Shown here: piece after piece, positions 8,250-63,817 of the stretch
Layout: each line of letters starts with the position of its first letter
How positions within the stretch are numbered: the first letter of the stretch is position 1
Origin: Trebouxia sp. TZW2008
Taxonomy: Eukaryota > Chlorophyta > Trebouxiophyceae > Trebouxiales > Trebouxiaceae
Reading direction: 5' to 3'
Assembly: GCA_002118135.1 (NCBI GenBank)
Contig: BDIU01000459.1
Coordinates: forward strand, 98,247 to 162,246
DNA: 64,000 nucleotides
Made by a program: the position numbers and the translations under genes
Notes under the pieces: generated by a model
Database searches by the model: none
Told to the model about the DNA's origin: nothing
Seen by the model: only the letters and a program-made list of their open reading frames with translations

Positions 8250-11200
8250 TCTCTCGACAAAGTCCAAGGCCTAGCTGTCAAGTTGATTGCAGGCACCTAC
8301 ACCCCACTCCACGCATTTCGAGAAGCTTACGCTAAAGCACGAGCCATCGGTGTTGGCTTGCATTCAGACAGCAGCTCGTCAGGCAGCGACGACGAGGCTT
8401 ATATGCCCTCGCCAAGAACTGGTGAGGGCTTTCATTTCAGTGCTTCTATACACTGCCCCTACAGGGAGCAACTCACAGCAGCTGTGTGAATGCAGGGGCT
8501 AGACGTGTAGCCAAAGTAGAAATGGTATGTTCTCTTGTACTGCTGCTGCTGGTTGTGACCTGCCTTGTGTATTGCTGCTATGTGTCATACTGCCACATGC
8601 CTCTGTCGTTGTCTTTGCTTGCACTTAAGAAGTACACACTGGTCCAGTCTTAACCCCAATGTTCACTGCCGTGGTCAGAAGGCAAGGCTGCCTTGATTGG
8701 GACTGCACATCCCATGACTTTGCATAGGCATGTCAGTAAAACAGGTCGACAGATGGGTGTACAGAGCTGCCATGAGTGGGACTGCAATCATCTTGTCTAT
8801 GTACAGGCATCGGAGCAAAGATTCAGAAAGATCGACAAGAGTCAGATGTCATGTAACTGCATAAGCATGATGTATGTGCACAGGTATCTGAGCAGAGACT
8901 TGAAAAGATGGACAAAGCCCAGGAGGTTCAAGGCCTGAGTTCTGGGGGGTCACCAAGGGGTACCCTGGGCCCCCGGGCCCCCTCAGCAACAGGCAGGAAA
9001 AGCTCAGTGTCGCGCGTCACAGCTTTTACACCCAATACCTTTGTGCCTGTCAGGCAGTCTGCAGCCAGCAGGTGAGCTACAATGATAGCAGCTTCATTCA
9101 CCAATTCTGTATGCCCCTAGCAGGGTCATCAAACCTCACTAGCAAGCATGTGTTTGATGGCGATGATGACAATGCTGGGGTTAATGACAGTGGTGGCGGG
9201 CATCTGGATTGTGCTGTGCTGTGTGATCTGCAAGTTGCAGTGCACTGCGTGCAAGGTTTGCTGATGCTGTCTGTTGAACGTCGCTTGTGACTTCACTGCA
9301 GCTTACTGGCAAGAGGCAGCATGCTGACTGTCACATCAGCAGGTGCTACAGGCATGAGTAAATCAGCTTGAACAATCATTGTGACAAACTTGCATGTGCG
9401 CAATAATGAACTCTAGCACAGTTGTAAGCCCAGGCTGTAATGACAGGTTGAAGCGTTCAGTGCATGTTGTTCGTATTATGACGACAGATTGTTGATGAGG
9501 AACTGCAGAGGGTTGCAACAGATACTGAGGCACAGCGCATGTAGTCTTGTCATATGGGAGACTGACACATCTTCAATGCGCAGGCTGGTGAACACAGAAG
9601 ATCAAGAGCACACACAAGTGGCTCCCAAAATTGGTCAAATTGCACGGTCGCAGCTTAGACCATCACAGACGCATGCAACAGCTGATAGCCTTGCTGAGGA
9701 TATCAGTGTTAAACCAGGTGAGCCAGCAAAGCAATTGCCATTCAGCCTCAGTGCATTGGGGAAAACCAGCTGCAATGAGCATTTTAGTAAATATTGCATC
9801 ATCAACTTCTGCCACAAAGTCAGGATTTCAAGAGTTCATGCTTCGTGCATCATCATTGACGTTGCTGATTGCAATTCTCAGAGCACAGTTGCATCGCATT
9901 GCAGTTTGCACATCGCCAGTTTGCAAGTAAACAGCACTACCCTGGCTGCAACCGGTGGCATACAGCCTTTACTGATCATCGCTAGGTCCCTGCCAAAATC
10001 GGCAGCTTTTGTTCAGCCAGTGTGGCACGGCTTGCACGAGCTGAAACAGCCTGAGGCCCGAGCGTCACCCAAGGGCAGCATCAAAGTTTGTTCTGCCTTC
10101 ACAGGGCTGGGCGTTAGCAAGCCTTTCGCAAGCAGTGCATCAGCTTCCTCAGCCAGTGGCAGACAACGTGCTCATGGTGCAGCACCCTTGTCCCCATCTC
10201 AGGTGATCACTGCTCTACAGTGAACTCAGTGACACTCCAGAGAATCAGTGCTTGCAACTAGCATGCCTTGGCTTTTGCTGGCAGCATGAGATGTCTACCC
10301 ACAGCAGGAGCTAGCATGCACATGTGCAAATGCATGGAGCTGTTCTGTAGGTCTTTGTTGCCTCTCACATGCCACTTGCAAGGAGTACGATTTGCACTGA
10401 GCATGTTGCTGGTGATCTGCGACCTGCAGCATGCCTTGACCCAGTTCTGAACAGCAGCAGATGACATGGTGCATGCTGGCAAACAATCACTCAAACGAAG
10501 GCTCCACAACAAACATTTGGGCTGCTGCAGGGGCCTAATTCTCAAGGGACGGCAGACCATGCAGGGCTGGCTGGTCCTTCACAGGTGGGAAGCAGCACCC
10601 CTGCAGTGCCTTTCAGGCCCGCAAAGGTGCCTTTCAGGCAAGCAGCAGCGCCTTTCAAGGCTCCTGCAGAGCCTTTCAGGCCTGCTGCTCTGGCCTCTGA
10701 GCCTGCAGAGGGGAGTGCAACAGCAGGACCACAGTCAGCAGCAGTCCCCTTGAAGTCTGGTGCAGTGCCTTTCAGGCCTGCTGTTGTGGTCTCTGGGCCC
10801 ACAGAGGCCTCTTCAACAGCAACTTCACAGTCAGCAGCAGTCCCCTCTAAGGCTGCTGCAGTGCCTTTTTTGCCTGCTGCTGTGGCCTCTGGGGCTACAG
10901 AAGGGAGTGCAATAGCAGCAACACAGTCAGCAGCAATCCCTTTTAAGGCTTCTGTAGTGCCCTTCACGCCTGCTGCTGTGGCCTCTGAGCCTGCAGAGGG
11001 GAGTGCAACAGCAGGACCACAGTCAGCAGCAGTCCCCTTGAAGTCTGGTGCAGTGCCTTTCAGGCCTGCTGTTGTGGTCTCTGGGCCCACAGAGGCCTCT
11101 TCAACAGCAACATCACAGTCAGCAGCAGTCCCCTCTAAGGCTGCTGCAGTGCCTTTCGGGCCTGCTGCTGTGGCCTCTAAGCCTACAGAGGAGATCTCAG

Positions 11201-26900: not shown

Positions 26901-26999
26901 AGGGTAGACACACCCAAAGCAACCAAGTTATTTGCCATAAGGGACGAGACCTATTGCTTTGACAGAAATCTCTGGATCACCCTGGCTTACAAGTTGCAG

Positions 27000-28470
27000 A
27001 GACAGCAGCACTGCATCAGGTGTCTGCCTTGCCATCTGCGTCATGCCTCACCCTGACATCTTTTCTGTGGGGTGCAAGCACGATGCTGATGGCAATGCAG
27101 CCAAGTTGGGCAGAGCAAGCATGTGCGCTGCAAAAGAATGTCCTGAACCACCCAGGGTTCACAGGTTGCCAAGACACAGCACTGCATCAGGTGTCTGCCT
27201 TGCCATCAGCAGCAGTCTAGAACCTGACATGGGTTTTGTCGAGTGCAAGAAGGACGCTGATGGCAAAGCGGCCAAGTGAGGCACAGCAAGCATGTGGGTT
27301 GCAATAGAATGTCCTAAACCACCAATGGCACAGGTTGTGGAGACAGCAGCACTGCATCAGGTGTCTGTCTTGTCATCTGCATCATGCCTTAACCTGACAT
27401 AAATTCTGTGGGGTACAAGAAGGATGCTGATGGCAGAGCAGCCAAGTGGGGCAGAGCAAGCATTCTTGCTGCAATAGACGTCCTGAAGCACCCATGTTTT
27501 ACAGGTTGCAGAGACAGCAGCACTGCATGAAACGTCTGCCTTGCCATCAGCGTCATTCTTGAACCAGTGTCATTCTTGAACCTGACATGGGTGTTGTCGA
27601 GTGCAAGAAGGATGCTGATAGCAGAGCAGCCAAATGGGGCAGAGCAAGCATGTGGGCTGCAACAGCATATCCTGAACCACCCATGATTCACAGTCTGTGA
27701 AGACAGCAGAAAATGTATCTGGTATCTGCCTTGCCATAATTCTTGAAGCTGAGATGAATTCTGTTGATGGCAGGAACGATGCTAATGGCAGAGCAGCCAA
27801 AGTGGTGCAGAGCACACATTCTCGCTGCAATAGAATGTCCTGAAGCAACCACGTACAGGTTGCAGAGACAACAGCACTGCATCAGGTGTCTACTTTGCCA
27901 TCAGCATCATGAATGAACCTGACATGGGCTTTGTAAGGTGCAGGGATCACGCTGGTGGCACAGCAGTCAAGCAAGCATGTGGGCTGCAACAGCATATCCT
28001 GAACCACCCATGATTCACAGTTTGTGAAGACAGCAGAAAATGTATCAGGTGTCTGCCTTGCAATCAGCATCCTTCCTCAACCTGACATAAATTCTGTGGG
28101 GTGCAAGAAGGATGCTGATGGCAAAGTGGTGCAGAGCACGGATTTGCGCTGAATATCCTGAACCACCCATTGGTCACAGGCTGTGGAGACAGCGGCACTG
28201 CATCAGGTGTCTGCCTTGTCATCAGCGTCAGTCTTGAAGCAGCGTCATTCTTGAACCTGACATGGGTGTTGTCGAGTGCAAGCACAGTACTAATGGCACA
28301 GCAGCCAAGTGGGGCAGAGCAAACATGTGTGGTGCAAAAGCATATCATGAACCATCCATGGTTCTCACATTGTGGAGACAGCAGCACTGCATCAGATGCC
28401 TGCCTTGTCATCAGCAGCATTTCTGAACCCACGTGTTGAAATTCCAGATGGATGCGATAAGGGCTGTCAT
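27000..28470. repeat. Tandem array, about 170 bp unit, 9 copies
   Basis: The marker GCACTGCATCAGGTGTCTGC (or a near variant) recurs at about 27009, 27179, 27350, 27520, 27705, 27874, 28030, 28196 and 28385. The spacing is 156-189 bp, close to 170. Units also share GTGCAAGAAGGATGCTGATGG and GGGGCAGAGCAAGCATGTG. The array lies directly right of the longer-unit array and just beyond the 3' end of the aquaporin gene. The long minus-strand frames crossing it are by-products of the repeat. Confidence 0.9.
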
Positions 28471-36312: not shown

Positions 36313-39300
36313 ATGCCTCCGACGTATGCGTTACAATCGATGCAGTTGACGGTCTGCTCGGCAGCCTCGCTGCAACCGCCTCATCCCGTGCCCCGTGGCG
36401 TCAAAGCGAGAGCGTTGCCTGTAAAGAGATCTAGGCAAACTCGCAGAGCCCTCGTCGTGGCTGTGCGAGCTGAGGCATCTCAGCAAAACGATAGCAAAAT
36501 GACCACTGCATCCTTCGAGGTGAGCTTTCGCAATAGAATGTGCTCACAGGCAGCGTCGTTCAAGCTCCTTGCTGTTTGCTCGAAATGTTTAGTTGCGAGT
36601 GTCCCCAGTGCCGTGTCAGATGGCTCGTTGTGCTAAGTGCAGGAACTGCAACACCCCGGCTTCGACAATGCGACGTCCTCTTTCACACAAAGGTGACCAC
36701 CTTTTTGCTGTCTGCCGCACCTGGTCAACATCTACACAGCAACAGGAGTTCCAGGACAATCTTGACAGCAAAATGACATCAACTTGCATGTCATGGGAGC
36801 CTTTGTGCATGATCTCAACAGAATCTGGTTTAACATGCACAGCATGCGATGCAGCTCAAGCACTCAAAAGGCCTTCAAGCACTCAATTCTGGCCAATGCA
36901 GAGGTCACGATCAGCAACAACAGCTAGCGCGGCGGGAGGAGCAGCTATGGCAGCGTCAAGAAGCCCTATGGCAGCAGCAGCTTGCTCACTGGCAGCATGA
37001 GCGCCAAATCTGGGCTCAGCGTGAGGCAGCGCTTCTTGCCACCATTCAAGACTTACACACTCTTCTCACCACAGCCTCTTCCCGCCACATTCCAGTTCAC
37101 TCCTCATCTCCCTCCCTTCAGATTGAGCCTGCTTTGCCTTCAGCTCAATCTTCTGAACAACCCAGTGCTCTGCAGCAAAATCAGTCTGCTAGTGCTGTTA
37201 CAGCACAGGCATCTCTCAGTCCAACAGCATCTCAGTCAAGCTCATCACAGCGCATATCTGTACCACTAGACGACGCAGAGCCAGCAGACCCTTCAGTCAA
37301 GCCAGGTGGACCAGAAGACAGCAGTGCTGGTCCAGGGGTCAGACCCCAGCAAGGGCCCCCTCCACCCCTCTCCATTGGTAATGATGACATCTACTGGGTT
37401 CACCAGCTGCAGTCTGGGCTCATGGCTGAGGGGTATTACTGTGGGGAGGAGGAAATGGAAGACTTTGTGTTTGGGTCAGGCACTGAAAGCGCTGTCCTCT
37501 CATTTCAGGTAAGGCTCAACTGACATCTGCAATTGCAGCTGCTCTGTGCATGACTCAGACTGCAATAACTGGCTGAGCTGAGATCCAAATTAGCAGATTG
37601 TCTGTGCAGATGTGTGAAGTCAGCATGTATCCTGCACTGCGAGTTTGAGGCAGACAACAGTGCATGACAGGCATCAGTTGAAGAATGCCACCAGATGCCT
37701 CCTGCCAGTGTCAATGTTTTCATCAACATGATCAATACTGCTACCAGATTTCCCTTACCTTGTAAATGATTATTCTTATGCTCCAGGCCACTGCAACTCA
37801 TGTTCAGGAGGTTTGGAGTGGCCAATAATGCCACCTGGCGAGGCCCATCGTTATCAGCATCATTTTTGCATGTTATGAGTATGCATATCAGCATCATCGT
37901 CATGACCATTGATTTGTCTTGATTTAGGCTTGTCAGGGTGTTGAGGAGAGTGGAGTGGCCAATGACGCCACCTGGCGGGCCCTGCTCAAGGACAAATACC
38001 AAGCTCATGTCCCACCTGTTGATGTGAGCTCCTCCAAATTTACCCTGCATGCAGCTTTAGATAGCTGCATGTATGTCATCAAGCTCATGCTGGCATGCTC
38101 TCTGGTACCCTTCACCACTTTGTTGTGATGGCTTGTACGCCACAGCATGCGAGGCCTTATTCAGTCTTGTTGCTAACGGCGTTCATGACGCACAATATTG
38201 AATGCCACAGCATGCATGATCCCAGGCAATGTGCTTGTCATTCAGGACAGGTAGTGTGCAGGAATACCTAATCTAAAGTATGTAATGCACACCATTCAGG
38301 AGGAACCCCTTGAAGAAACTCCTGACCTGCCACGCACTGCACCTCCACCCACAGCCCCCTCAACCCCCAAGCAGGGGTCCCAAGTCAAGGACCCCAACCC
38401 CTGGCAAGCCAGCTGGGGTGACCTTTTCAGCTCAGAAGAAAACGACGCTGAACTTGAACCCGAGACCAGGTCCAGTAGCAACGCTGCACCCAGCAACAAC
38501 CCTGCTGCTGCACAGTCTGAGGCTGCAGCTCTTGATGAGATTTCTGGCAGTATCGAAGCTAGCCCAACCACTTCCGCAGCTGCAGCTTCCACAGGTGACT
38601 GCATCACCATCACGAATCATTTGCTTGCTGTTGAGTTTTGAAGAGCCTGCCAGCCGCATATGGAGGAAAGTCATTGCCTCAAAAAATCTCAGCAGCCACA
38701 GCTTCCATGCGTGACTTCATCATCATCATGATTCGTATGCTTGTTGAGGAGATTCTGTGACCCTGCGAAGTGCATATGAAAGTAATAACTTGCGTCCAAA
38801 CAACCCCGTCCAAAACCAACTCATGCCAACAGGGGACTTGGAGTGATGCATCTTGCATGCAAGCCATGCGGAATTTGCTGACTGTGGTACAAGTTGTACT
38901 GAGCATAGCTGAGGCACATTGCGGTTCAAGGGTGCAAGACAACCCAGCGTATCAATAAAGCACCTGTGTTGCTGTATTGGGTCAGTACTCCAAGGCTGGT
39001 GTGGAGTGCTGCTTGTGCTAGGCTGTATACGCTGTCCAAAACAGTCTTTTTGCGTGACAAACAATGACTCCATGACAGTTGACCTTGCTGGCACTTGTCT
39101 ATAACTATTTGAAGGTGTCGTCAGTGCTTGCTCAGTATCGGGTGCAAGCTTAGTCTGTGTGCAGTGTTGCCATGCTTGCGTGAAGTTGACGGCCATGTGT
39201 GCTGATCCAAGGATCATTGCAACTTCCTTGGATGAGTTTACCAGACCATCAACTTCACGCATACAAAGGAAGGCTGGACACAAACTCCTGCAGATACATC

Positions 39301-56978: not shown

Positions 56979-58246
56979 CAAAGAGATTCTTGCCATGCTG
57001 CTTATCAACAGTTGTCGCCGATCAGTAACCTCAACAGTGCCTCACACCCTCACATGATTACGTTGACAGAAATACTAGCCAGCCCCAGGGCTGGATGCTG
57101 CTGACATTTGTGCAGCCCTATTGCACTGTTAATCAAAAACTTGACAGGTCTTGCCAATGAATCATTCGGAACAGCTGATGGTGCCCTGGTCATTGCTGTG
57201 TGACAATGTACAGAATATTTGCTGTCAAGTCGACCGCCCATAGGTTGCGTGATGATCTGATTGCTATGCCAGTGACCGGTTCATGAATGCCGTGTAACTT
57301 GACTTTGTAGCTGATGTTTCCTAAGGCTCTGAGGCATCATTGCAAATGCGCATATGCCGATGCATATGTGCATATCTAATTTCACCGACCTGTGAGACTA
57401 CCGTAGTTTGTAGTACAAACCAAACTAGCAGTGTCCAGTGCAAGCAGCGCGCACAGGCTGCATGAGCTGCTTAAGCTTGAGCTTCACGCTTGATCACCCC
57501 GCATGCACACATGCCTTGCTTGGGTAATGGGTTGTCCCGCGCTCTTTAGAATGGCGCGCAGATTGTGACCTTTGCAAGAGATAGATGGCAGGCAACGCTG
57601 TAAATGCTGCCATAATGACGAAGCTGACCTTACCCCAGGTTGCAGTGCCTTTTGACAGCTGTGACGAGCTGCAGTGCCTTATGACAGCTCTGACGACAGC
57701 TGTGACTGCCTGCAATGATGGTTGCATCAATGACAGACCAGCCTTTGTAATGAGATGCCGTGAGCTTCCAGCAGAAATCAAAAATCAAATCCAGTGAGCT
57801 TCGTCATGCTGCACGTGTTATGACAACACTAGCATTAAGTATTGACTTTGCACCCGCCAGAATCCTCATCCGAAGGCCCCCTACGTCATGTGTCATTTTG
57901 AAGCCTTCCACAAAATACATAAGCACAGGGGCGCGCTTGACGTCTTTACTCTGCAAGCTCGCTTCGATCTGCCGGTGCAAGCTCCTGCCTCAGAGCACCC
58001 GTGGTGTCAGCGTCAAAGTCCTTCTCAGGTGAATGCTGTGCGCTTCGGTGCCGTCCGCCTGCTGCCTGCCTGCATATCCGTACAAGCTGTTAAGCTTCCA
58101 CACCTGTTGCGACGCTGCAAGCCGTGGCGGCTTGCTGCCTTGCGCTCGATTGCTATGCTGCATGATGCTGACGCTGGTGCCGCATTGTCTACAGCGCATG
58201 CTACCTCACACGCGACCGTGTGCTTGCAGGACCGCCTTTTCTTACC
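56979..58246. other. Intergenic stretch upstream of the module-repeat gene
   Basis: No gene model holds. A minus-strand frame at 57494-57781 contains a hydrophobic stretch (VSFVIMAAFTALPAIYLL) but also a perfect donor-like GGG|GTAAGG in the middle, so its reality is doubtful. A small duplication lies at about 57636-57700 (GCAGTGCCTT.TGACAGCT twice). The right end should hold the promoter of the 58.2-kb gene; a possible leader acceptor (GTGCTTGCAG) lies at 58229. Confidence 0.4.
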
Positions 58247-60143
58247 ATGAAGGCTACCGCTACTACCGCGACCTGCTGTCTACTGCTGCTGCTGGCTGTC
58301 TGTGGCCCTGCCACAGGCAGGGAGCTCAAGGAAGGTAAGCTCAAGCTCGCTCACGACCACGGCCAACGAACTGACTGCCTGCCTGATCGCTCAGCTTGCA
58401 CAGGCGTCGACAGCTTGCACAGGCATCGACCGCTTGCACAAGTGCTGCACTGACCCATGCCGGGCTGCCTGCAGAAGGGCGGCGATTGCTGGCTCATCGC
58501 TTCTGCCATGGCAGCCACTGTCACTACCACAAGTACTGCAACTCACACGCTGCGGCTGCTGCCGCTTCAGCTTCTGGTGGAGACGCTTCTGCTGCAGCAG
58601 CTGCAGCTTCCTCAGGTAAGCTGTCTGCAGTCACGACAGCAGGACTGCATGAGGGTATGTGCACCTGCTGCAAATACTCATTTGAGCATGTCTTGACTCT
58701 CACCTTGCTGCAGGCAGCTGCTATGAGGGCTACTTCTCAGATGAAGCAGCATCAGCTGCTGCTTCTGCCAGCTCAGGTGAAGCTGATGTATTGCTTTCAC
58801 CATGATAGGCAAGCTCTGATCAGCTGCATAAGTGCGCACACAGCAACTCTCAGTACATTTGCTGCAGGTCGCCATCTGCTATCAGCCCGCTTCTGCCACG
58901 GTGACAACTGCCGCTACCACAGATACTGTGACTCCAGTGTAGCAGCAGCTGCGGCTTCTGCTTCTGGTGGAGATGCTTCTGCTGCTGCAGCTGCAGCTTC
59001 CTCAGGTTAGCTGTTGGCACTTATGACAACAATGGCAGCAAGAATGCAAGTAGGCGTGAGTACCTGCTACAAGTGGATCCTATCTGAACTCGATCAATTG
59101 CTGCAGGCAGCTGCTATGAGGGATACTTCTCAGATGAAGCAGCATCAGCTGCTGCTTCTGCTAGCTCAGGTAAAGCTGCTGTGTTGTACCTGATTGTGAA
59201 ATGCAATCTCTGTTCAGCTGATGAGTGCACACTCAGCAAAGCTCGGTGCAAATTCTTGCAGGTCGTCATCTGTTGGGAGTCCGTTACTGTTATGGCGACA
59301 ACTGCCAGTACTACAAGTTCTGCGACTCCAGTGCAGCAGCAGCCGCAGCAGCAGCTTCTGGTGGTGACGCTTCAGCTGCTGCAGCTGCTGCATCTTCAGG
59401 TGAGCTTTGAGCTGTCCAGTTTGATTATTAGTGTCAAATACCCTCCTGATTGCGTATCCTAATGCACTGTGGCATGCAGATGACTGCTACGAGGGATACT
59501 TTTCTCCTGAAGCCGTGGCATCAGCTACTGCAGTAAGCTCAGGTAAGCCTGCATACGAGAATGACACATCCCTGAATGCAAAGGAAGTCATGCCTCACTC
59601 TTCGCTGCTATACCAGACGATAGCTGCACTGCATGACTGAGCTTGAACTTGTTGCAGGCCGCCACCTTCTCAACGTTCACCACTTCTGCCATGGTGACAA
59701 CTGCCACTACCACAAATACTGCAACTCCCACGCTGCAGCTGCTGCAGCAGCAGCTTCTGGTGGTGATGCTTCAGCTGCAGCTGCTGCTGCATCTTCAGGT
59801 GAGCACAATACCTCCTTGAGTGCTTTGTTGGCTGTGCTGTGACGCAAAGTTGACAGATTTGGCTGCATGAATCTGCTTACTGTAAGCAATGCTGCCTGCA
59901 GTCTGACTCTGTACCACTGCAACAGTCAGCTCAAGATCTGATCATGCACTTGCTGATGGAACACAGCTCCAAGCTTGATGGGACTTGCATCAAGATCTGC
60001 TGCAGAAACGGCATTTGTGACAGTGGCGAAATGCTGTTCTGTGCGTCTGCCATGCTTGACAGATCCTGACTGCAGGTGGCTGCTATGAGGGTTACTTCTC
60101 ATCACAAGCAAGCTCTGCTGCTGCTTCTGCATCATCAGGATGA
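58247..60143 (+). CDS. Secreted protein of alternating duplicated Cys/His and Cys/Tyr exon modules
   Basis: Nine exons, all introns in phase 1: 58247-58334, 58475-58615, 58714-58776, 58868-59005, 59107-59169, 59262-59399, 59480-59542, 59658-59798 and 60076-60143 (TGA). They sum to 903 nt, 300 residues. Exon 1 is a signal peptide (MKATATTATCCLLLLLAVCG). Exons 2, 4, 6 and 8 each code a 46-47-residue module A: GR.LL, then FCHGDNCHYHKYC, then an Ala run, SGGDAS, another Ala run and SSG. Exons 3, 5, 7 and 9 each code a 21-residue module B: CYEGYFSDEA, then Ser/Ala. Module A has three Cys and B one, so each A-B pair has four, suggesting disulfides between modules. No membrane anchor is seen. I know of no such family. 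The His/Cys core could bind metal and the Ser/Ala runs could be glycosylated linkers, as in cell-wall proteins; both are guesses. Confidence 0.9.
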
Positions 60144-61176
60144 GCAACATCTGCAATGCCTGGATGAGCCTGGAGCACTATTGCTTGCACCACCTGAGAC
60201 TTCAACAGCTAGCTATGAATGACACATTACAGCTTTAGTAGTGGCTGGAAGTTCTTCCTTTGCTGAGATTTAAGGGTCTGGTTTTGAGTCGCTTGAGGTC
60301 AAGAATTTGCCTGACACATGAGCAGGCTTTGATGCTAGTGTTAGCTGGTTTGCTTTACGCTGCTCTGTGAGAGGTGTCATGTTGTTGCTGCCTTGTGCTG
60401 ATTTGCGCCATGAAGCTAGCAGGCTATGTCAGGAACCCTAATCATTTCTGCAATGTGCTTAGCTCGTGAACTGTTTGCTTGACAGTGAAGGGCTTACTCA
60501 AGATGACTCAATTTTTTTGTAACATGCTGATGCACGCATCTCAGACTCTAGCAAGACTGCATCTGCATATCAGCAGCATGCCACAAGCACAAGTGCTGCC
60601 ACTAGCACTACTGCATGCCACGTTGCAGCACCATTCACTTGTCATGTGCATTGATCTGTACATTCTGTAGCAGCTGCCTCTGAATTACTGTGTCTCTTGT
60701 CAATGACGCTGACGCACTGCTTGGTGCCTTGCCTTCTGCTTTGTCATGCAAGCAGCAGTCTTGCCATGCTGCAGGCGTTTTGGCCTTGCTGCTAAGCTAT
60801 GAAGCTGAGCTGTGTAGAAATTATTTGTCCACTCCCACAGATATTGACAGCCTTGCGCATTTGAAACATGTACTTTATGCTTGCAGCAAAACAAAGTGCA
60901 GTGCAGTGTAGCTTGACGCAAACCTGCTTGTGAGTCAGCAAGCGCAGAGCGTGTGATTCTCAACCAGCGCTTATACATTACAGCTGCTACTATATATGTC
61001 AGATTGAGCCCACATCAAATGAACCAAAGTCACTGATGTAGCAAGGCGTCCCAGCTTGCTACAGAGCAGTCTACACAACAAATCAAAGCTTTACAGCTAA
61101 ATAATGCGATCACGTACACTTGTCAGAACTGACACCACAGGTGGCTTGTTTGGCCCAGCGAGATCATCTTGGTGCA
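60144..61176. other. Intergenic between convergent genes, nothing seen
   Basis: This 1-kb stretch lies between the stop of the module-repeat gene and the stop of the minus-strand gene. Frames are short, with no splice chain and no repeat beyond isolated short runs. The 3' untranslated regions of both neighbours are expected here. Confidence 0.5.
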
Positions 61177-63817
61177 TCAGGAGAAGCCCCCACGCAGCTC
61201 CTCCAGCAGCTCCAGGCACCAGCCCTCTCTTGACCAGTAGTACACAAACTCGCACATCTCCACTTGCTTCTGCATCTCGCTGCACACCTGTACGCAACGC
61301 AATATGGCCTACTTAGCTGCAATTCAGACAACAGATTGTGTCCGTATGCAAGGTGTGCTGCATACAGCTGATTGTAAACACATTGATGCTGATGAAAAGG
61401 AAACAGATACAGCTTTGACTGCATGAAGAATGCCAGGCAGGATATGCGTGCTATTTCATCAGGACTGTTTCCAGCTCGTAATTTTGCATCATCAGAATAA
61501 TAATCTCAACCTCAAAAAAGTGCTGAATAAAGCAAATTTCAGGCCGAAGCAGCTGGGCCCACAACATGCCAACCACTACATGCAATGGTGTACAGTGTGA
61601 ACTAAACAAGCTGGCCAGGTTCGTACTGACATGCCTTGCAGTCAGTGCTGCATGTCCAACACAAAGCATACTAGAGCAGCATGCAGAGGATCAGGAATGA
61701 AAGCAAGTCTGTTTTTGCTGATGAGTGCAGGGAACAGATAGCTTACCGCTTGCTGGGTGGCGCTGAGCCTGTCTCTGGGCAGGAAGGTGGGGTTCATGGT
61801 GAAGACCTCATCGCCCACCTCTTCATTTTGCCAGGGCTCCACCAGCTGCATGTTCTCCCACAACAGCTTGCTGCGCACCTCTGGATCCTCCAGCAGAATC
61901 CTGAAAGTCAAGCAGACTCAATTTGAAACGTCGAGTGGCGGTCAAGATCTGGACTTTTGGAAAGAGGGTGAGGTGTGGTGATTCATGCCTGTCGTCAATG
62001 AACAGCTTGCTGCACACGTCTGCACATCCTCTGACAAGGTCCTGAAGCTGTAGGCAGAATGCATGTCAAACATCAGCTGAGGTCAAGCTCGGTCTCTGAC
62101 AGGATGACTGCATGTTCTCCCACAGCATGTTGCTGCGCACCTCTGGGTCCTCCAGCAAGATCCTCAATGTCAAGCATAGTCTGTGTCATCAGTTGTCAGT
62201 CAGTTTCTTGTGGTGTGGAAGTACATGCCTGCCCTCATACAGCAGCCTGCTGTGCACCTTGTAGTCCTGCTGGCCCTTTACATAGCTTGCAAACGTCTCA
62301 TGTCAGATGCAGATCAATATTTGTGGGGAGTTGCAGGCCTGGTCTGAGACAGCAGGTTGCTGCGCACCTCTGGGTCCTCCAACAAGATCCTAAATGGCAG
62401 ACAGAATACATGTCGTCACTCAGAATGTGTCTGTGTAGGGTTGCACGCCTGCCTTCAAAGAGTAGCTGGCTGTGCACCTGTGGGTCATCCTCAAGAGCAA
62501 GCAGACCTTTCTTCAGATGCTGTTCAAGACCTGTGTAGACAGCAGGATTTCACAAGACAAACAAACTCATGCTGGCCTTCAGATGTCAACAAGGGCGTTT
62601 CTGTGTGAGTTTGCATGCCTGCCCTCACACAGCAGCTTGCTGCGCGCTTCTGGGACCTCCAGCAAGCTTTAATAGGCAGACAGACTGCATGTCAATTGCT
62701 GGTAAAGGTTTGTCTGCATAGCAATGCATGCCTGCCCTCACACAACTCACCGACTGCACGTCATTTGTCAAATCTCAAATGCAATCTGTCTGGGTCAATA
62801 TACTTGCCCTGCTGCACCAGCTTGCAGCAATTGCAGTGCTAGGGCAATTCCCCTTGCAGCAATTGCAGTGCTAGGGCAATTCACCTGCAAGCCCTCCTGC
62901 AGGCAAAACAGAACTTGCATGTCAGTGTACAGCTAGAGCGCATGAGTAGCCCTCTACAGTAGCTGCTGCTCAATTTAGGCCCACCACCATGCATCCTAAA
63001 AGCAGTGAAGCTTCAAAGTGTGAAGACCATGGGAAGTGGCGCCTGTGCAAGCAGTGTGTCTGCAACAATTTTATTTGATGGCATATGGCGTCAATGGCCT
63101 GTGCTTGTGTGGGATGTGCATGTGGCTTGTGCAAATTATGTGAAGGCCATGTCTGTCCAGACATGTGTGTCCCTGAGTTCTGTAGCAGGTGATGTCAGAA
63201 TCACCCACAGATGCCAGTCAACGTGACTTGAATCACCAGGTCTGTCTGAACAGCTTTGCATGACGCATTTATGCAATCATTCAACCCTGTCAGCCTGTCA
63301 TACTGTAAAAATGTATTGGGCATGAGAGATTCTGAACAGGACATTCGCGGAAAATTGCACAGTGTCTTGTGGTCCCTCAAGCTTTCTGCATGTTTCCTGC
63401 TGTGCTATGCTTGCATGCAGACAAGTTTGAAGGTTTGCAAGCCTGCAGGTTTTGAAGCCTGCAGCTTTTGCACATTTGACTTATAAGAACGCATCTCTTG
63501 TTGGCACAGCAATCACCTGAAACAGTGTTGCCATGGTACTGCTGTGCTCTATTGTAGGTGCATATCCATGAGCATGATCCGCCTGTCGCCTGATGTCCCT
63601 TTCTGAGACACATGCCACAACAGGATGCGCGCAAATAGCTCTCTCAATATCATGTGACAAAGGGCCATTACTTGCAACGTTGCAAGCAGGGGCAAGCTCA
63701 CCTAGGAGGCACCAGGACAGGGGAGACATCACCCCCCAGCTTGCGAGCCCCCTCATACACTGCAATGACAATCTGCTTGGCCAGCTTCAGCGCCTGAACT
63801 GGGTTGTCCTGAGGAAC
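61177..63817 (-). CDS. 3' part of a conserved-looking, unrecognised protein gene
   Basis: Three exons join in phase on the minus strand: 63702-63817, 61747-61900 and 61177-61287 (TGA at 61177-61179). The gene continues right of the window. The text is highly protein-like and not low-complexity: NPVQALKLAKQIVIAVYEGA, KLGGDVSPVLVPPR, LLEDPEVRSKLLWENMQLVE, GDEVFTMNPTFLPRDRLS, and a C-terminus with EMCEFVYYWSREGWCLELLE. This is probably a soluble helical domain near the end of a conserved protein, but I cannot name the family from sequence alone. The intron between 61900 and 63702 is filled on its exon-proximal side by copies of the start of exon 61747-61900. Confidence 0.72.
62000..62900 (-). 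repeat. Ladder of acceptor-side copies of exon 61747-61900
   Basis: The start of the exon (plus strand CTTGCTGCGCACCTCTGG, then ATCCTCCAGCAGAATCCTG) recurs near 62007, 62118, 62240, 62350, 62465, 62625 and 62730. Decay increases with distance and the period is about 110-150 bp. Each copy is followed by AAGTCAAGCAGACT-like intron text and a shared TGTGTCGTCA..GT block. All lie upstream of the acceptor in transcript direction. Confidence 0.85.

Follow-up and report, generated by a model that had tools for sequence, protein, structure and literature searches.

A tandem-repeat gene of the green alga Trebouxia with an R-x-L-L motif before every unit, possibly a precursor of silk-like material that is cut by site-1 protease

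A nine-exon gene in Trebouxia sp. TZW2008 encodes a chain of four tandem units, each of which opens with an R-x-L-L motif, and the motif keeps this position in relatives elsewhere in the genome. The reading that we put forward, which we rate slightly short of an even call, is that the product is a secreted repeat precursor cut by site-1 protease (S1P) into four-cysteine units of 64-67 residues, perhaps as a silk-like surface material. The chain would start with a signal peptide and a short propeptide that ends in RRLL, and four A+B units would follow, with RHLL parting the units from each other and no site behind the last. The alga's own S1P would cut after every R-x-L-L in the Golgi, so releasing four units of 64-67 residues with exactly four Cys apiece. 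Within a unit, a bridge between two of the Cys in module A could close a small hairpin, leaving the third to pair with the Cys of module B, and the Ala/Ser blocks and Tyr-rich patches would allow packing of the units into a silk-like material of the wall or sheath. Cutting of the intact relatives would yield units of about 95-119 residues, nearly Cys-free and with an extra Tyr/His-rich module.

The gene was reconstructed exon by exon in the window, by which we mean the whole stretch of 64,000 nucleotides that was analysed; it forms one end of contig C428 (162 kb). The gene runs on the plus strand from 58247 to 60143, and its 903 nt encode 300 amino acids and end in a TGA stop (Table 1). The A exons measure 141, 138, 138 and 141 nt and the B exons 63, 63, 63 and 68 nt, the last including the stop. 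This model agrees with an earlier sequence-only reading of the same DNA, which had described four A and four B modules in strict alternation with three Cys in the one and one in the other; the mature part thus has 16 Cys, with 3 more in the signal peptide. All eight introns are phase 1, begin with GT, end with AG and have TGCAG acceptors. The claim that every module exon has phase-1 introns on both sides holds with the exception of B4, which is terminal and so not symmetric. By hydropathy the first exon resembles a signal peptide, and the protein is probably secreted.

Table 1. Features of the repeat gene, with positions in the window.
Feature	Position	Strand	Basis
Exon 1: signal-peptide-like MKATATTATCCLLLLLAVCGPATG and propeptide start RELKE	58247..58334	+	Hydrophobic first exon, also accepted in 6/7 relatives
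Exon A1, 141 nt	58475..58615	+	Gene model, module alignment
RRLL, proposed S1P site 1, propeptide end	58480..58491	+	Motif count, published S1P sites
A1 three-Cys core CHGSHCHYHKYC	58504..58539	+	Gene model, module alignment
Exon B1	58714..58776	+	CYEGYF at 58719-58736
Exon A2	58868..59005	+	Three-Cys core 58894-58929
RHLL, proposed S1P site 2	58870..58881	+	Motif count, published S1P sites
A2 donor GTTAGC; in-frame stop (GGT TAG) on intron retention	59006..59011	+	Gene model
Exon B2; peptide identical to B1	59107..59169	+	CYEGYF at 59112-59129
Exon A3; core CYGDNCQYYKFC, no His, 59288-59323	59262..59399	+	Gene model, module alignment
RHLL then G, proposed S1P site 3; P4-P1' residues as in human ATF6	59264..59275	+	Motif count, published sites
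Exon B3	59480..59542	+	CYEGYF at 59485-59502
Exon A4; core CHGDNCHYHKYC 59687-59722	59658..59798	+	Gene model, module alignment
RHLL, proposed S1P site 4	59660..59671	+	Motif count, published S1P sites
Exon B4 with stop; ends SSG-stop	60076..60143	+	CYEGYF at 60081-60098

The modules are duplicates under coding constraint. Identity to the first copy is 67-75% for the A modules (over 172 nt) and 61-94% for the B modules (over 89 nt). Synonymous differences between the A modules (pS 0.49-0.65) are those of well diverged duplicates, and dN/dS is 0.11-0.18 in 6/6 pairs, with dS to be taken as rough at synonymous differences this large (up to 0.65 in A). This low dN/dS indicates coding constraint, and a pseudogene reading was set aside on the same ground. 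In the B pairs, too, substitutions are mainly synonymous (pN 0-0.28 against pS 0.15-0.72); B1 and B2, which are recent duplicates or have been converted, differ at two silent positions. The A exons are 71-78% identical, compared with 44-78% for the 60-base flanks (ungapped columns, 12 comparisons). Eleven of these flank comparisons fall below 70%; the exception, upstream of A2 and A3, is as alike as the exons.

The gene is not alone, as the genome (68.5 Mb in 527 contigs) contains at least eight loci of the family: the window gene, one each on contigs C473, C77, C50, C9 and C175, and two on C373. Eight is a lower bound because the search scores the best candidates only; a second round in the same genome, with the most divergent relative as query, gave no further locus. 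Spliced models of the family comprise three module types. Module A is G-R-x-L-L followed by a Tyr/His head and an Ala/Ser spacer, module B is GG(Y/F)DGYF with an Ala/Ser spacer, and module C, which is Tyr/His-rich, is typically DDYDHGYG...GNFHHSGG with Ser/Ala. Six relatives have the layout (signal peptide), A, B, CA, B, (CA, B), C-stop, in which C and A share one fused exon; the window gene is without C and has an intron exactly at the unit boundary. A search of positions 57000-62000 for a decayed C module found none, the best match outside the exons being 42% over 19 aa on the opposite strand (E 0.046).

Open exons whose splice sites are plausible could be identified in the relatives, and in 6/7 the model closes with a stop. 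Their exon candidates were sought as phase 1 on both sides, which makes the phase 1 of their 38 introns partly a matter of construction. A hydrophobic first exon was accepted, by hydropathy, in 6/7; for C50 none was accepted and the best candidate lies 1.6 kb upstream. The C175 locus looks decayed, its first A holding a stop and reading RSLS, and no C-terminal exon was found there. In two close pairs of the family the exons are 91% identical compared with 61-67% for the introns (ungapped columns), and gene-pair dN/dS is 0.13-0.26 in six chosen pairs of the 28 possible. The two relatives on C373 (L011 and L012) lie about 13 kb apart on opposite strands with a dS of 0.30, equal to that of the C473/C77 pair.

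What sets the window gene apart is its cysteine. Among the eight family loci found it is the only member with Cys modules: against its 16 mature Cys, the mature parts of all seven relatives' models have one in total (in C373b), and across the family the Cys of the A and B modules occur or are missing together. The motif C-[HY]-G-x-[NH]-C, searched for as a DNA pattern, matched 20 places in the genome, compared with 3 for a control. Four of the 20 are the window gene; the other 16, all translated, had no family features, and the source of the excess over the control is unexplained. Beyond this genome, the relatives' CA exons gave 166 and 171 pattern stretches in viral and prokaryote DNA collections, and the window A module gave 73 in the viral collection, with none confirmed in any of these searches.

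The sequence-only reading had described the A module incompletely, overlooking the invariant R-x-L-L at its head. The motif is present in 20/20 modelled A modules, the decayed C175 A being left out of the count. As the first count had picked A modules by the motif itself, they were recounted by aromatic head and Ala spacer, again with 20/20. Its Arg uses all six codons and its Leu positions use four and six codon types, its second residue is not fixed (11 K, 3 R, 3 H, 2 S and 1 Q), and the stretch from the motif to the next invariant Tyr is mostly variable. Of 41 Leu in the 1,976 residues from the first site onward in eight models, 40 are inside R-x-L-L and the last is in C9; Ile, Met and Trp are absent from the repeat region of all eight. 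R-x-L-L arose in only 17 to 89 of 50,000 shuffles of single window units. Shuffling the whole region gave three or more sites in 0/200,000, a figure that overstates the case because the units descend from one another and their sites are not independent.

The sites are also placed as those of a precursor would be. In the intact or open models there is one before the first unit and none past the last, and in six of these seven loci the distance between successive sites, or between the last site and the end, is near-constant. It is 67, 67, 67 and 68 in the window gene and 109, 109 and 108 in C373a, and uneven (95, 119) in C9. A virtual cut of the window protein after each R-x-L-L gives 67, 67, 67 and 64 residues with 4 Cys each. 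In the published S1P motif, R-X-aliphatic-Z, Leu is the best residue at Z and X is neither Pro nor Cys, and natural sites include RHLL-G (ATF6), RRLL (site C of S1P itself) and RSLL (OASIS) (PMC8310232). The family motif agrees with this in all 20 modelled A modules; RKLL, the commonest form (11/20), and RQLL are not among the sites in the available text of that source (PMC8310232).

The genome also contains the protease. All five matches of MBTPS1_4th over the cut-off fall at one place, the S1P gene. Open frames near this match carry DTG, GHGT and SGTSVA, which we take to be the catalytic motifs, and the stretch just upstream of the first motif-bearing frame aligns with human S1P, with an RRLL in register with site C. 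Two similar stretches, each with SEDTKRRLLLSS, occur in the prodomain region of this locus (L064, minus strand, frame from about base 2696), as if the segment with the cleavage site had been duplicated in the prodomain. S1P-type subtilases are conserved across lineages (PMC6713707), so the presence of the gene discriminates little. An exon-wise six-frame search of the genome for the kexin P-domain (P_proprotein) found none, in a format that a domain split by introns could escape.

That the protein is instead an uncut structural component of wall or sheath is unlikely, yet it deserves serious weight. Ala/Ser blocks would pack, Tyr, His and Cys patches would cross-link, and R-x-L-L would be structural or serve in sorting. 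The composition speaks for this: Ala, Ser and Gly make up 54-61% of the seven intact or open models, signal peptides included, the heads are rich in Tyr and His, and Ala-rich blocks alternate with Tyr/Gly-rich ones throughout the family models. In outline the family is similar to silk-like block proteins such as the suckerins of squid ring teeth, in which Ala-rich crystalline segments alternate with Gly/Tyr-rich amorphous ones and His is common (PMC6393770, PMC4595719). Unlike suckerins, the window family has Cys and R-x-L-L, and squid ring-teeth material is described as lacking inter-chain covalent cross-links in the available text (PMC4595719, PMC6393770); the likeness is one of composition and does not imply homology. 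The motif could be kept for another reason than cleavage, such as sorting or assembly. However, an uncut silk leaves the confinement of Leu to R-x-L-L unexplained, and does not account for why the variable position of the motif is one that S1P tolerates, nor for the fact that the end of the chain coincides with the end of a unit.

For the proposed S1P-cut units, the Ala/Ser blocks and aromatic heads hint at surface assembly, by comparison with Rep1 (PMC4617103) or with suckerin composition (PMC6393770). An AlphaFold2 model of the A2 exon (mean pLDDT 67.4, pTM 0.41) has a hairpin, with the Ala blocks modelled as two helices. The first two Cys lie in the hairpin of this low-confidence model, which would leave the third for B; this is no more than suggestive, and the model says nothing about A-B bridges themselves. 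The helices modelled in the Ala blocks, if anything, do not favour a beta-sheet silk, again with low confidence. Each unit has an even number of Cys, three from A and one from B, and the disulfides between modules that had been predicted are plausible, with Cys in 4/4 A and 4/4 B modules and one mature Cys across the seven relatives. The same parity bears on the suggestion that modules could be skipped freely: an A+B pair could go, while a single skip may be harmful as it would break the 3+1 Cys arrangement and the unit length. A retained intron at the A2 donor might possibly give a shorter A1-B1-A2 product. This product would end in SSG, as does the full protein; SSG is also the C-terminus of three of the six stop-bearing relatives, the remaining three ending in ASG or SAG.

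Four Cys in each 64-67-residue unit, and a Cys content of 5.8% in the mature part, might also point to a precursor of small Cys-rich secreted peptides, signals or antimicrobials and not a material. There is a plant precedent in the CLEL6 precursor, which is cut by the S1P homologue SBT6.1 (PMC7162652). We hold this to be improbable: Ala/Ser/Gly spacer takes up much of each unit, that of module A hardly changes among the window copies (pN 0-0.04), and the relatives retain their Ala/Ser spacers with almost no Cys.

The sequence-only reading had proposed a metal-binding Cys/His core, and the A1, A2 and A4 cores are indeed dense in both residues. The core it gave, CHGDNCHYHKYC, is exact in A4 only, the other copies differing. 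The Cys are fixed and the His are not, as His positions swap with Tyr, Arg and Gln among the four copies and the A3 core has none, and the relatives are without the Cys. Metal binding as the main function was put aside on the lack of His conservation among the four A copies, and we regard it as very doubtful. An Ala-rich protectant against desiccation or ice would suit a low-complexity, probably secreted protein of a lichen alga, and its chances are slimmer still, with no LEA or antifreeze family among the Pfam and NCBIfam matches and the Tyr/Cys heads and R-x-L-L left unexplained.

The protein had also been called novel. This stands insofar as no Pfam family exceeds its cut-off (the best, Ly49, reaches 18.4 bits of the 31.5 needed), the whole protein matches no NCBIfam family and the best PDB match for two of its four units has E 0.12; it is qualified by the relatives in the genome, two of which, of the seven, were compared with Pfam and likewise had no match over the cut-off. 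Among the literature matches listed, in which subscription journals are thinly covered, there was neither an algal silk-like family nor an algal repeat precursor processed by S1P.

Elsewhere in the window, a tandem array of period 96 (5.7 copies, with a 288-base unit 94% alike) at 10641-11191 lies inside an 823-aa open frame of AVPF.PA-type repeats with no Pfam match at E 0.001. A longer array at 26978-28429 has period 171, 8.5 copies and 69% matches, and an open frame at 36849-37523 has a weak match to the peptidoglycan-binding family PF01471 (21.6 bits against a cut-off of 23). The GC content of the window is near 50%. The rbcL of the genome is of the plant and green-algal type, with algal entries as its top PDB matches. 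In size and GC the genome is similar to that of Trebouxia sp. A48, which has 69.1 Mb and nuclear contigs kept at 48-50% GC, and the window protein resembles the small or Cys-rich uncharacterised part of the A48 secretome, with Cys above 5%, a signal peptide (putative in the window protein) and no annotation (PMC12712428).

By layout, the closest comparison is with the fungal KEX2-processed repeat proteins (KEPs), secreted precursors of tandem units with a convertase-type site between units (PMC9769878), and with Ustilago Rep1, whose repellent peptides form fibrils on the hyphal surface (PMC4617103). The window gene, as a presumably secreted precursor, shares the tandem units and the convertase-type site between them. 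It differs in its green-algal host and in its sites, which are R-x-L-L, of the S1P type, and mostly not dibasic. KEP repeats are flanked by dibasic KR, RR or KK, while the window sites begin RR, RH, RH and RH, so that 3/4 are not dibasic (6/20 family-wide). The window gene is therefore no KEP, though a different protease may let it act in a similar way. With known S1P/SBT6.1 substrates (ATF6, OASIS, SREBP and the plant CLEL6 precursor) it has the cleavage motif in common (PMC8310232, PMC7162652). In contrast to the window gene, each of these has, in the available text of those sources, one or two sites, and none is presented there as a tandem repeat in which every unit carries a site. With somewhat less assurance than we attach to the cleavage of the window protein itself, we suggest that the family is a green-algal analogue of the fungal repeat precursors, with an S1P site before every unit, near-identical silk-like surface blocks and one member with four Cys where its relatives have Tyr and His.

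Even if the protein is left uncut, the genome contains a silk-like family built on module exons that lies outside the coverage of Pfam, NCBIfam and PDB as searched. Should cleavage at the sites occur, S1P and not a kexin would process this repeat precursor, and a regulatory protease of the Golgi would be tied to a surface material of near-identical units. The family would then offer a natural pair of designs on one silk-like scaffold, one with Cys and one almost Cys-free, and a system in which to test surface construction in a photosynthetic alga.
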